From contig CP123444.1 in NCBI GenBank assembly GCA_029866965.1, positions 1,529,501 to 1,593,500 on the forward strand: a stretch of DNA of 64,000 nt. The letters are read 5' to 3'. This DNA is from Flavobacteriaceae bacterium YJPT1-3 (GTDB taxonomy: Bacteria > Bacteroidota > Bacteroidia > Flavobacteriales > Flavobacteriaceae). The notes below the pieces were generated by a model that saw only the letters and a program-made list of their open reading frames with translations, ran no database searches and had not been told where the DNA came from. This document shows positions 42,263 to 56,629 of the stretch, one piece after another (the first letter of the stretch is position 1; each line of letters starts with the position of its first letter). A program made the translations under genes and the position numbers.

Positions 42263-42337
42263 GGGCGCGTAGCTCAGTTGGTTCAGAGCACTTGGTTTAC
42301 ACCCAAGGGGTCAGGGGTTCGAATCCCTTCGCGCCCA
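42263..42337 (+). tRNA. tRNA-Val, anticodon TAC
   Basis: The 75-nt cloverleaf has acceptor stem GGGCGCG pairing with CGCGCCC, a D-arm with AGCTCAGTTGGTT, anticodon stem CTTGG/CCAAG around loop TTTACAC (anticodon TAC at 42298-42300), and T-arm GGGGTTCGAATCCC. The discriminator is A and no CCA is encoded. It has a clear promoter upstream and an intrinsic terminator downstream. Confidence 0.95.
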
Positions 42338-42348
42338 CATCAAGCAGC

Positions 42349-42581: not shown

Positions 42582-43004
42582 TTATTCATTGGAGAACTCA
42601 ATCTCACTATGGCTTCCATCGCAATAGGGTTTTCTGCTTGAGGCTCCACATCGGCAAAAAGCTGTAGCTCTTTTCTGGGTGGTGACCGTTCCGTTATGAT
42701 CTTTAACTTCCAGGGTGCCCATGACCATCAAAGGGCCCCGATCCATCACTTCAATTTGAACGGTATGCGGAGAAGGATCAGGATTGATCGCTTCTTGATT
42801 TTTTAAAGACAAAGCGCCGGAAGGACATTTACCTACCTGTATTTTCAAGGCGGCTGTTGTCGCATTTTCAATTTGGATCCACGGCTTTTCATTGGGGCGA
42901 TAGACCTCCGGAAGCATTTTCACGCATTCTGCGGCGTGGATGCATTTATCCGGTTTCCATAAAATAGTGATCTCCCCGTTACTGTATTCTTTGACTGTTG
43001 CCAT
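42582..43004 (-). CDS. Iron-sulfur protein: divergent 4Fe-4S domain plus CDGSH domain
   Basis: The 140-residue protein has two cofactor regions. Residues about 14-70 form a (4Fe-4S) mono-cluster domain of the Fer4_19 type (KCIHAAECVKMLPEVY, VGKCPSGAL). Residues about 112-134 form a CDGSH motif (FCRCGASSRKPYCDGSH) with three Cys and one His binding a 2Fe-2S cluster. Proteins with this pairing are thought to act in redox sensing or electron transfer; no partner is adjacent. It is monocistronic on the minus strand, between the tRNA-Val terminator and the lipoprotein gene. Confidence 0.88.
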   Translation of the reverse strand: MATVKEYSNGEITILWKPDKCIHAAECVKMLPEVYRPNEKPWIQIENATTAALKIQVGKCPSGALSLKNQEAINPDPSPHTVQIEVMDRGPLMVMGTLEVKDHNGTVTTQKRATAFCRCGASSRKPYCDGSHSEIEFSNE

Positions 43005-43243
43005 GGCCTTGTCGATTTATTGCCCTGAAAAGATAAGGAATATTGAATTAGGTACGGATAGGTAGCGATGAATCGTTTTAGCCTATTATGCTGAAGGACA
43101 GCATTCAACCAGGCGCCTGATGGTATTAAGCGCAAGAATCTTGCATCCGCCCATCACTTTAACCCAAGGTTTTTTTGGCAATAGGGTAGGAATTAAGGCG
43201 TTCTAATGGTTATATATTATGAACAATAACCTAAATGTGTCTT

Positions 43244-43696
43244 ATGAATACTCTAAAAAAAATAGCCCTATTTTGTTTTGTGAGCGCATCAGTTTTACTG
43301 GTGGCCTGCAGCAGCGATGACGATGGAGCAGAAATTACCGCAGAGGTCCGCATCAACGGCACCGTGCTTTTTGATGATGGAGATGATTTTGATGGTGATA
43401 TCGATGGCGACTTTACCGGAAATGGCGGGAGTGAGACCCGTACTTTCCTTTGGAATAATGCCCTGACCACCGCAGACTATAATGCTGATATTACGGCGAC
43501 CTCAGAAGGCTCGTTCAATATGACCGTAAGAGATGCCGGTGGCGAGATCGTGCTGGATCGAAGTCTTTCAGGAGACTCAGAGCCGGATTCGTTCTCCGGA
43601 GTGACTTCTGCCGGAGTGTTCGGAATCTGGTCGGTGACCATTACTTTGGTATCCTTCAATGGAGACGGAAGCTTTTCGCTGAGCGAAGGGAATTAA
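43244..43696 (+). CDS. Small acidic surface lipoprotein of unknown function
   Basis: The 150-residue protein has a lipoprotein signal (MNTLKKIALFCFVSASVLL, lipobox VAC). The Cys is followed by SSDDDGAE, an acidic stretch that resembles the surface-export signal of Flavobacteriia lipoproteins. The mature part is beta-rich and very acidic, with a DDGDDFDGDIDGDFTG loop that may bind calcium. I recognise no family. The ATG at 43244 begins the signal peptide; one three codons earlier is possible. Its terminator follows at 43722. Confidence 0.78.
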   Translation: MNTLKKIALFCFVSASVLLVACSSDDDGAEITAEVRINGTVLFDDGDDFDGDIDGDFTGNGGSETRTFLWNNALTTADYNADITATSEGSFNMTVRDAGGEIVLDRSLSGDSEPDSFSGVTSAGVFGIWSVTITLVSFNGDGSFSLSEGN

Positions 43697-43721: not shown

Positions 43722-43759
43722 AACCTCTGTTCTGAAAGGAATGGAGGTTTTTTATTTTT
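43722..43759 (+). terminator. Terminator-like hairpin after the lipoprotein gene
   Basis: Stem AACCTC/GAGGTT with an inner TTC/GAA pairing, followed by a T-rich run (TTTTTTATTTTT). The heptanucleotide repeat begins right after it. Confidence 0.65.
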
Positions 43760-43834
43760 ACCGACTACCGACTACCGACTACCGACTACCGACTACCGAC
43801 TACCGACTACCGACTACCGACTACCGACTACCGA
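43760..43834. repeat. Perfect heptanucleotide tandem repeat (ACCGACT)10.7
   Basis: Ten complete copies and five further bases of ACCGACT with no mismatch. It is noncoding, between a terminator and the hairpin array. Absence of any substitution suggests recent slippage expansion. Confidence 0.95.
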
Positions 43835-43843
43835 TTTATTAAA

Positions 43844-44758
43844 GCGTGATTAACTTCGTTGATCCATTCCACTCCGTTCTGAAAATAGTAATCCCCGATA
43901 CGCTAGCGCGTATCTGATTTTTTTTTCTGACAAGTCCTCGTCTTTTAAGCCTTGAGAGTTAGCAAGCTGGATTAACTTCGTTGATCCATTCCATCCCGTT
44001 TTGAAAATAGCAACCCCAATACGCTAAAACTTATCGAGATTTTTGATTCATGCTAAGGAATTTCGTCTATGAACAAGTAGTTGGATTACCTTACGGTGAT
44101 CCATTCCACCCCGTTCTGAAAATAGCAATCCCAGATCCGCTAGCGCGTATCGGCATTTTTTTTCTCACAAGTCCTCGTCTTTTAGGCCTTGAGAGTTAGC
44201 AAGCTGGATTAACTTCGTTGATCCATTCCACCCCGTTCTGAAAATAGCAATCCCAGATCCGCTAGCGCGTATTGGGATTTTTGATTCATACTAAGTAAAT
44301 TCGTTTAAGAACAAGTAGCTGGATTACCTGAGGTGATCCAGAGAACACCCCGTTTTGAAAATAGCAATCCCAGTTCCGCTAGCGCGTATCGGCATTTTTT
44401 TTCTCACAAGTCCTCGTCTTTTAGGCCTTGAGAGTTAGCAAGCTGGATTAACTACGTTGATCCATTCCACCCCGTTCTGAAAATAGCAATCCCAGATCCG
44501 CTAGCGCGTATCTGATTTTTGATTCATACTAAGTAAATTCGTTTAAGAACAAGTAGCTGGATTACCTGAGGTGATCCAGAGAACACCCCGTTTTGAAAAT
44601 AGCAATCCCAGTTCCGCTAGCGCGTATCGGCATTTTTTTTCTCACAAGTCCTCGTCTTTTAGGCCTTGAGAGTTAGCAAGCTGGATTAACTACGTTGATC
44701 CATTCCACCCCGTTCTGAAAATAGCAATCCCAGATCCGCTAGCGCGTATCTGATTTTT
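43844..44758 (+). repeat. Array of eight hairpin units with a 238-bp higher-order period
   Basis: Eight units begin at 43844, 43966, 44080, 44203, 44318, 44442, 44556 and 44680. Each has a core of about 79 bp: hairpin 1 (TGGATTAAC/GTTGATCCA type), a spacer around GAAAATAGCAATCCCAG, hairpin 2 centred on CGCTAGCG, and a run of 5-9 T. Odd-numbered units are followed by a 45-bp linker (TCACAAGTCCTCGTC type), even-numbered ones by a 35-bp linker (GATTCATACTAAGTAAATTC type), so a two-unit block of 236-238 bp repeats 3.3 times. Units 5 and 7 are identical, and so are the cores of 6 and 8; units 1 and 2 are the most diverged. No open frame spans it. Its function is unknown; a BIME-like palindromic element array or a set of tandem terminators are the best guesses. 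Confidence 0.93.
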
Positions 44759-44799
44759 ATTTTCCTTGCTCTTCGCTCAAATTTCATTTGGCTCAGGCT

Positions 44800-44850
44800 C
44801 GGATAAGCAGCAATCCCTGATCTGATCGATCAGGGATTGCTGCTTATCCG
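44800..44850. repeat. Perfect 23-bp inverted repeat abutting tRNA-Val(GAC)
   Basis: Arms 44800-44822 and 44828-44850 pair perfectly around a 5-nt loop; the right arm ends at the base next to the tRNA 3' end. The arm contains AGCAATCCCTGATC, matching 13 of 14 bases of a segment in the hairpin-array units. It could act in 3' processing or termination of the tRNA transcript, although no U-run follows on the minus strand. Confidence 0.9.
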
Positions 44851-44925
44851 TGGGTGGTACTGGATTCGAACCAGCGACCCCCGCCATGTCAAGGCGATAC
44901 TCTAAACCAACTGAGCTAACCACCC
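44851..44925 (-). tRNA. tRNA-Val, anticodon GAC
   Basis: The 75-nt minus-strand cloverleaf has acceptor GGGTGGT/ACCACCC, D-arm TAGCTCAGTTGGTTTAGAG, anticodon stem TCGCC/GGCGG around loop TTGACAT (anticodon GAC, plus-strand bases 44888-44890), and T-arm CTGGTTCGAATCCAG. The discriminator is A with no encoded CCA. GAC reads GUC, hence valine; Asp would need GTC. Confidence 0.92.
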
Positions 44926-54940: not shown

Positions 54941-56629
54941 ATGGCAGAAGTAATCAAAATGCCCCGCTTGAGCGATACCATGGAAGAAGGAACCGTGGCT
55001 CAATGGCTTAAGAAGAAGGGAGACAAAGTTGAAGAAGGAGATATTCTGGCCGAGATCGAAACCGATAAAGCCACGATGGAGTTTGAGTCTTTTTACGAAG
55101 GGACTTTATTGCACATAGGAATTCAGGAAGGAGAAACCGCCGATGTAGATGCCCTTTTGGCAATCATCGGTGAAGAAGGAGAAGACATTAGCGCTTTGAT
55201 TGACGGCGGCGGCGATCCGAAGACTGAGGAAAAGAGCGAGAGTGAATCGGAAGATTCGGCAGCTCAAGAAGATTCAGAAAAAGAGACCGAAATCCAAGAT
55301 GACACTTCAGAAGAAGATGCATCAGAATCTACTGATGAGGTTCCCGAAGGTGTAGAGGTGGTGAATATGCCTCGCCTTAGTGATACCATGGAAGAGGGTA
55401 CGGTAGCGACCTGGCTGAAAAAAGAAGGGGACACTGTAGAAGAAGGAGATATCCTGGCTGAGATCGAGACCGACAAGGCGACCATGGAATTTGAGTCCTT
55501 TTATGCGGGTACTTTACTCCACATTGGCATTGATGAAGGCGAAACGGCCAAGGTCGATAGCCTTTTAGCGATCATTGGTCCGGAAGGCACCGATGTGTCC
55601 GGAATTATTGCCAACGCAAAAAGCGGTTCCGGAAGTAAAAAATCAGCGCCCAAAAAAGAAGAACCTAAAAAAGAAGAATCTAAGGCAGAGGCTGCCCCTA
55701 AAAAAGAAGAATCTAAAAAAGAAGAGGCTCCTAAGGCAGAAGCACCTAAAAAGAAAAGCGCCAAGTCGTCCAGTGATGGTCGCATTATCGCTTCTCCCTT
55801 AGCCAAACGTTTGGCGGAAGAGAAAGGGATTGACCTGAACCAGGTAGAGGGAACCGGAGATCACGGTCGAATCGTTCGTCGCGATATTGAGAATTATACG
55901 CCCAGCGCTGCATCAAGCGGACTGGCACAATTCGAGCCCACCGGAGAGGAAAGCTTTGAAGAAGTGAACAACTCTCAAATGCGCAAAGCGATCGCAAAAA
56001 GTCTTTCGAAATCGAAATTTACCGCGCCGCATTACTACCTGAATGTTGAGTTCAATATGGAGAATGCCATGGCCTTCCGATCGCAATTCAATCAATTGCC
56101 GGATACCAAGATCTCCTACAACGATATGATCGTTTTGGCCACAGCTATGGCCTTAAAACAACATCCGCAGGTAAACTCACAGTGGTTTGATGACAAGATG
56201 CGCCTCAATCACCACGTACACATAGGGGTGGCGGTGGCCGTACCTGATGGATTGGTGGTGCCTGTGGTACGCTTTGCCAACGAAAAGAAATTGCAGCAGA
56301 TCAATGCTGAAGTTAAAGAGCTGGCCGGAAAAGCACGCGACAAAAAGCTAAAGCTTGAAGAAATGGAGGGCAGTACCTTCACGATTTCCAATTTGGGGAT
56401 GTTCGGGATCACCGACTTTACCTCCATCATCAATCAGCCCAACTCGGCGATACTATCCGTAGGGGCCATTGTGGAGAAACCGGTGGTTAAAGAAGGTAAG
56501 ATAGTCGTTGGACATACCATGAAATTAACCATGGCCTGTGATCACCGAACGGTGGACGGAGCTACCGGGGCGCAGTTTTTACAGACCTTGAAAACCTATA
56601 TCGAGAATCCGGTATTGATGCTGGCTTAA
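54941..56629 (+). CDS. pdhC: Pyruvate dehydrogenase E2, dihydrolipoyl acetyltransferase with two lipoyl domains
   Basis: The 562-residue E2 has two near-identical lipoyl domains (residues about 3-78 and 141-216), each with the lipoylated lysine in EIETDKATMEFES and MPRLSDTMEEGTVA. Between them is an acidic Glu/Ser linker, and after them a Lys/Glu/Ala/Pro linker. Next comes the E3-binding domain (IIASPLAKRLAEEKGIDLNQ, GRIVRRDIENY) and the catalytic acetyltransferase domain ending in MACDHRTVDGATGAQFL with the catalytic His. It transfers the acetyl group to CoA. Confidence 0.95.
   Translation: MAEVIKMPRLSDTMEEGTVAQWLKKKGDKVEEGDILAEIETDKATMEFESFYEGTLLHIGIQEGETADVDALLAIIGEEGEDISALIDGGGDPKTEEKSESESEDSAAQEDSEKETEIQDDTSEEDASESTDEVPEGVEVVNMPRLSDTMEEGTVATWLKKEGDTVEEGDILAEIETDKATMEFESFYAGTLLHIGIDEGETAKVDSLLAIIGPEGTDVSGIIANAKSGSGSKKSAPKKEEPKKEESKAEAAPKKEESKKEEAPKAEAPKKKSAKSSSDGRIIASPLAKRLAEEKGIDLNQVEGTGDHGRIVRRDIENYTPSAASSGLAQFEPTGEESFEEVNNSQMRKAIAKSLSKSKFTAPHYYLNVEFNMENAMAFRSQFNQLPDTKISYNDMIVLATAMALKQHPQVNSQWFDDKMRLNHHVHIGVAVAVPDGLVVPVVRFANEKKLQQINAEVKELAGKARDKKLKLEEMEGSTFTISNLGMFGITDFTSIINQPNSAILSVGAIVEKPVVKEGKIVVGHTMKLTMACDHRTVDGATGAQFLQTLKTYIENPVLMLA

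Follow-up and report, generated by a model that had tools for sequence, protein, structure and literature searches.

An array of hairpin units behind tRNA-Val(GAC) in a Flavobacteriaceae bacterium: the probable remains of a protein-free integrative element

The tRNA-Val(GAC) locus

The window (the whole 64 000 nt stretch of DNA that was analysed, from Flavobacteriaceae bacterium YJPT1-3) contains an array of eight units directly 3′ of a tRNA-Val(GAC) gene; as this gene is on the minus strand, the natural reading direction of the array is minus. Read in this direction from the tRNA, there is a hairpin with 23 bp arms (44850 down to 44800), then the remnant of a long arm and then the eight units, each ending in a small hairpin that we call M. 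This position, directly behind the tRNA and on the same strand, was missed in the preliminary description of the array. The features are as follows.

44850..44925, minus strand: tRNA-Val(GAC), the host tRNA, with its 3′ end facing the array (ARAGORN; Rfam tRNA, 64.1 bits)
44800..44850, minus strand: tRNA-proximal hairpin with 23 bp perfect arms, carrying AGCAATCCC, which recurs in the array units
44758..44799, minus strand: probable remnant of arm B (in complete elements a long stem), with an A-rich strand; assigned by comparison with complete elements
44683..44799, minus strand: unit 8, nearest the tRNA; M hairpin 44683–44701, spacer, outer-stem strand, hairpin C and A-run on the tRNA strand
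44559..44682, minus strand: unit 7; M hairpin 44559–44577, ACC/GGT type
44445..44558, minus strand: unit 6; M hairpin 44445–44463, AAC/GTT type
44321..44444, minus strand: unit 5; M hairpin 44321–44339, ACC/GGT type
44206..44320, minus strand: unit 4; M hairpin 44206–44224, AAC/GTT type
44083..44205, minus strand: unit 3; M hairpin 44083–44102, ACC/GGT type with loop TTAC
43969..44082, minus strand: unit 2; M hairpin 43969–43987, AAC/GTT type; degenerate hairpin C
43846..43968, minus strand: unit 1, the most distant from the tRNA; M hairpin 43846–43865, degenerate
44276..44513, strand not applicable: 238 bp higher-order dimer, identical to the next dimer
44514..44751, strand not applicable: 238 bp higher-order dimer, identical to the preceding one (recent tandem duplication)

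In relatives, the position of the tRNA-proximal hairpin is taken by an outer stem and a hairpin A. At the far end of the array the distal copy of the tRNA tail is now unrecognisable, and only a trace of tail is left. On the other side of tRNA-Val(GAC) lies a gene that we take, from its sequence, to be murF. A second tRNA-Val is found at 42263–42338 on the plus strand, with two ORFs (42582–43004 and 43235–43696) between it and the array. The array thus belongs to one tRNA, and its relatives sit in many different neighbourhoods, which disposes of the earlier suggestion of a barrier between two convergent tRNA genes.

TRF gave a repeat at 43848–44758 with periods of 122 and 238, and the eight units were confirmed in tandem. 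The M hairpins start at 43846, 43969, 44083, 44206, 44321, 44445, 44559 and 44683 (plus strand), with M-to-M steps of 123/114/123/115/124/114/124 bp; as these alternate between ∼123 and ∼114 bp, two linkers alternate. The last two dimers are identical base for base, and identity over 238 bp of noncoding DNA indicates a recent tandem duplication. The layout first described, eight units with alternating linkers and 238 bp dimers, is upheld by the TRF result, the hairpin starts and the identical dimers, and is far beyond chance. The absence of a gene is likewise confirmed: the longest ORF wholly within the array encodes 49 amino acids. Between neighbouring units the hairpin arms show double changes that keep the pairing (GGATTAAC..GTTGATCC versus GGATTACC..GGTGATCC), and the units share AGYAAYCCC on the plus strand with the tRNA-proximal hairpin. 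Folded as DNA, single units have z-scores of −0.6 to −2.5 against shuffles, only slightly better than chance, which marks them as decayed or partial; strong structure belongs to the complete element in relatives. A G+C-rich hairpin followed by a T-run at 43897–43914 (plus strand) has the form of an intrinsic terminator. TRF also found a perfect 7 bp tandem repeat, TACCGAC, in 10.9 copies (43759–43834) between the terminator of a lipoprotein-like gene and the array, and an imperfect, coding-like K/E-rich tandem repeat with periods of 15, 33 and 48 at 55645–55752.

The M hairpin and two further arrays

On the tRNA strand M is GGATCAACGNAGTTAATCC, which serves as the marker of the family; in the window it is GGATCAACG(N)AGTTAATCC or the variant GGATCACCTCAGGTAATCC. 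Its variants (AAC/GTT, AGC/GCT, ACC/GGT, ATC/GAT and AAT/ATT) keep the pairing around the constant GGATCA...TAATCC, in which there is one conserved mismatch, C/A on the tRNA strand and a T–G wobble on the other; as RNA, M is stabler on the strand opposite the tRNA. Variation of this kind around a constant core could equally be that of a dyad-symmetric protein site. M is nearly absent from viral contigs (two matches in 2.9 million), and we therefore rejected the idea that it is a phage attachment site.

Searching the same genome with M gave two further arrays, at tRNA-Ser(TGA) and tRNA-Arg(TCT), whereas a DNA query with the array sequence found the array at the window locus only. The array behind tRNA-Ser(TGA) carries GGATCAGCGCAGCTAATCC in at least two copies; that behind tRNA-Arg(TCT) carries GGATCAGCCGAAGGATAATCC and consists of two elements in succession, separated by a copy of the tRNA tail that matches at 11 of 12 positions. 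The repeat thus recurs behind two other tRNAs here, as well as in relatives, and the view that it is a structured noncoding repeat and more than a local slippage product holds. The genome has three PF00589 genes, none of them near the arrays. On the 5′ side of tRNA-Ser(TGA) there are separate imperfect direct repeats, CGCTTTGCGAACA..TTCTCTGTTAGC..GGCGGGCCTGCCGGCCGAAGCAAAG (L166, 1861–2100).

The preliminary description had named a BIME-like mosaic of palindromic units as the nearest concept and a REP-type element as one possible reading; repeats of this kind are spread by a RAYT (IS200-like) transposase. The repeats do resemble REP/BIME sequences in being short, extragenic and palindromic and sometimes arranged in alternating dimers. 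No Y1 transposase gene (PF01797, with positive controls run) was found in the genome, however, and the copies found sit behind tRNAs and are not dispersed; direct repeats of the length of a tRNA tail are not known as a REP feature. We consider a REP/BIME origin to be highly improbable.

The family in Bacteroidota

We scanned 84 980 genomes for the M hairpin and obtained at least 119 loci; 79 of the 80 titles among the matches listed are Bacteroidota. In 91 of the 119 loci among the matches listed, the 700 nt upstream contain a tRNA or tmRNA gene in the same orientation as M; the linkage expected by chance, estimated from tRNA density, is well under 1%. Most of the other 28 listed loci are cut by a contig end or a run of N, or have a T-arm or tRNA tail just upstream (judged by eye). 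The hosts include at least ten kinds of tRNA (Ser, Val, Arg, Pro, Tyr, Ala, Lys, His, Gln and Thr) as well as tmRNA. The distance from the tRNA end to the first M is mostly 120–165 nt in the 91 linked loci among the matches listed, and the elements are often in tandem. In a separate phylum sample exact M occurred in only six of 396 genomes, and in all six a tRNA was upstream where the contig allowed. The looser pattern GGATCA-N5-10-TAATCC is common, although much of this is background.

The window's own 238 bp dimer is too divergent to serve as a query for such a survey. A DNA search with it gave matches in four of 301 genomes, one of which (L006) looks like a chance match to coding sequence. 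Against Rfam only the tRNA reaches the gathering score, and no known RNA family matches the element. We found no earlier description of it in open-licence PMC papers, and it may have been described elsewhere.

Two loci from the survey are unusual. An exact M 129 nt behind tRNA-Val(CAC) is found in a MAG labelled Bathyarchaeota (L021, position 4745), with the usual fold absent, which may be due to chance or misbinning. Behind a tRNA-Ser (L078, 1365–1433), M is repeated three times with a 25 bp period and the rest of the element is absent.

Fold of the complete elements

A complete element is ∼140–190 bp in length and gene-free, with no room for an integrase gene. We folded 74 elements, taking the sequence between the tRNA end and M. 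The mean z-score is −7.5, with 73 of the 74 below −3, and in 44 of them the minimum-energy fold is a four-way junction. This is closed by an outer stem, and its three arms are hairpin A, with a T-run behind it, the long arm B, which typically has AAGCTTGCTT or AAGTTTACTT at its tip, and hairpin C, with an A-run in front of it. The sequences of the arms vary among loci and tRNA types with the pairing kept, and the palindrome does not end in any constant sequence. From a MAFFT alignment, RNAalifold recovered only the arm B tip and M, as the stem sequences are too variable to be aligned; for this reason single-sequence folds and an exchange of stem partners among loci were used instead. With its own partner the outer stem has an energy of −15.5 kcal/mol, compared with −8.7 kcal/mol for permuted partners (z = −22), and arm B has −23.1 compared with −11.1 kcal/mol (z = −29); these z-scores are inflated by sequence relatedness. 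The own partner was better than every foreign partner in 38 of the 74 elements.

Such a fold invites the explanation that the element is a conserved structured RNA, or a compound terminator acting in both directions, which is retained behind tRNA and tmRNA genes because it has a function of its own in termination, read-through control or trailer processing. By sequence, hairpin A with its T-run resembles an intrinsic terminator on the tRNA strand and hairpin C resembles one on the other strand; the RNA fold is stabler on the tRNA strand in 64 of the 74 elements (Wilcoxon P = 2 × 10⁻¹⁰), and in many elements the base directly following the tRNA is already the first of the outer stem. The distribution, however, is patchy: within one family only about eight of the 28 displayed tRNA-Val(GAC) loci, from different genera, carry the element (by eye), and many tRNA-Ser loci of one genus are without it. 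The explanation also accounts neither for M, which is stabler on the opposite strand, nor for the tail copies and the match between M and the host tail described below, and we regard it as rather improbable. The tRNA-proximal hairpins may plausibly have the terminator function suggested in the preliminary description, but such a function leaves the tail copies, the T-arm-like hairpin and the occupied and unoccupied sites unexplained.

Evidence for insertion at tRNA 3′ ends

The 3′ half of M, AATCC, continues into a copy of the tail of the host tRNA. Among the 119 listed M sites, 20 agree with the host tail at no fewer than eight of 12 positions, including 11 exact copies; in 1000 shuffles the number reaching this threshold averaged 4.4 and never exceeded 11. 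At most loci, the one in the window among them, this copy has degenerated. In 81 of 88 loci the base preceding M can pair with the base that opens the host tail (shuffled mean 39.8, maximum 53): M mimics the T-stem of its own host tRNA. At four loci (L098, L032, L088 and L077) the terminator behind the second tail differs from the first one, as would be expected had the native tail and terminator been pushed away.

One species pair, from a single genus, was examined closely for occupied and unoccupied sites. In L192 tRNA-Ser precedes a complete element with its M, behind which a tail copy leads into the downstream sequence; the tail and downstream sequence align over 256 nt with 85% identity to the tail and downstream sequence of the unoccupied tRNA-Ser in L199. 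Two other loci (L201 and L202) agree with the unoccupied site in L199, and the upstream flank is shared. In two relatives, tyrosine integrase genes (PF00589, PF13102 and PF17293) are found 240–260 bp behind the same tRNA-Ser, so this site is used by larger elements. No integrase or recombinase was found in or beside the elements in the 119 listed loci by a crude motif search. Two possible sources were tried and rejected: a plasmid origin, for which a search with one element gave no plasmid match, and a full-length mobile element with the same right end, the candidates for which (L066 and L025) show no integrase. Downstream of tRNA-Ser in both L192 and L199 (beside the integrase gene in the latter) a T-arm-like GGTTCGATTCC lies between inverted and direct copies of TAGTTACCCTA.

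These observations also bear on local amplification without mobility, in which a tRNA 3′ end and its terminator are tandemly duplicated by slippage or unequal recombination, as behind tyrT of Escherichia coli, and M is a decayed T-arm. Tandem arrays with periods of 85–170 bp are common among the family loci, the last two dimers in the window are identical and elements of different genera that lie behind one type of tRNA have sequence in common, all of which would fit. The decay of different T-arms, however, would not yield the same GGATCAACGNAGTTAATCC behind ten kinds of tRNA and tmRNA; the displaced terminators differ from the proximal ones in the single-copy loci L098, L032 and L088, and a whole element separates L192 from L199. 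Local amplification as the sole origin thus appears unlikely to us. The sequence shared by the tRNA-Val(GAC) elements of several genera suggests old vertical inheritance rather than frequent jumping.

Proposed origin of the array

We think it likely that a protein-free miniature integrative element inserted at the 3′ end of tRNA-Val(GAC) and that its distal part, amplified in tandem, makes up the array. In this model a complete element would start exactly at the tRNA 3′ end and supply a replacement terminator within a long imperfect palindrome made up of the outer stem, hairpin A (the terminator), the long arm B and hairpin C (a terminator on the other strand). It ends in M, the T-arm-like hairpin whose 3′ half runs into the tail copy. 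Such a geometry is that of site-specific insertion at the T-arm and tail, by which the tRNA is left with a good tail and a terminator, and the original ones are displaced behind M; the duplicated tail would be an att-like direct repeat. The element would be moved by a recombinase acting in trans, most probably a tyrosine integrase of the kind carried by larger elements that use the same tRNA site. The array would have arisen later: the portion that runs from arm B through M would first have been duplicated in tandem, giving a dimer of two units, and this 238 bp dimer would have been duplicated in turn; two steps of this kind would give the alternating linkers, which we read as two diverged remnants of arm B. 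The array has probably lost its own mobility. It is likely to be a relic, with bidirectional transcription termination as its remaining effect.

More tentatively, the family may be a new class of mobile DNA, in which protein-free elements of ∼150 nt move between tRNA and tmRNA genes by means of a T-arm-mimicking recombination hairpin that is recognised by its structure, possibly as folded single strands, and restore the host tail and terminator at each insertion. If the insertion model is right, a large family of minimal mobile elements, apparently unannotated so far, is carried throughout the phylum behind tRNA and tmRNA genes, at the sites that phages and islands use. The elements would shape the ends of tRNA transcripts and provide larger elements with duplicated attachment sites, and they would offer a small test system for how integrases recognise the T-arms of many different tRNAs.

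Comparison with known systems

The closest parallel is with the integrative elements that use tRNA sites (genomic islands, prophages and the NBU1-type elements of Bacteroidota), which also insert at the T-arm and 3′ tail, leave a direct repeat of the tail and restore the tRNA. Like these, the present family has direct repeats of the tail at both ends and, in one case, occupied and unoccupied sites; it differs in being ∼140–190 bp in length, without genes (and thus without an integrase gene of its own) and almost wholly palindromic, with the one end motif M across many tRNA species. Since the element lacks, or may lack, at least one defining feature of each known system, we assign it to no known class; it works like a miniature integrase-less tRNA-targeted integrative element.

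MITEs such as BrickBuilt of Porphyromonas gingivalis (Klein et al., 2015, cited in PMC5771137) are similarly short, noncoding, palindromic and multicopy, presumably moved in trans, and may contain tandem repeats. The element, in contrast, targets tRNA and tmRNA 3′ ends, has the tRNA tail as its direct repeat and has no fixed terminal inverted repeats: the outer-stem sequences differ between tRNA types, and no autonomous parent with shared terminal inverted repeats was found.

The tyrT/rtT repeats of E. coli are tandem, lie directly behind a tRNA and contain a copy of the tRNA 3′ end, but are known from one operon in one group. Tandem repeats with the tRNA 3′ end behind a tRNA are also seen in L046, L176 and L069, whereas the window retains only its trace of the tail. 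We know of no report of a four-way junction or an M hairpin in the tyrT/rtT repeats, and the present element matches no known RNA family in Rfam.

The attC sites of integrons are short imperfect hairpin recombination sites that are strand-asymmetric and occur in arrays with a spacing of about 120 bp. M, as an imperfect hairpin with a conserved C/A mismatch in arrays of ∼120 bp, is similar in these respects; judged by eye, however, it appears to lack the attC boxes, no cassettes are apparent, and the motif search of the 119 listed loci found no integron integrase beside the elements. At one further locus (L259, 200–580, in genome G079) an element array opens with a tRNA-Ser tail to which no tRNA is attached, as though the tRNA and the array had been separated by the insertion of a larger element.
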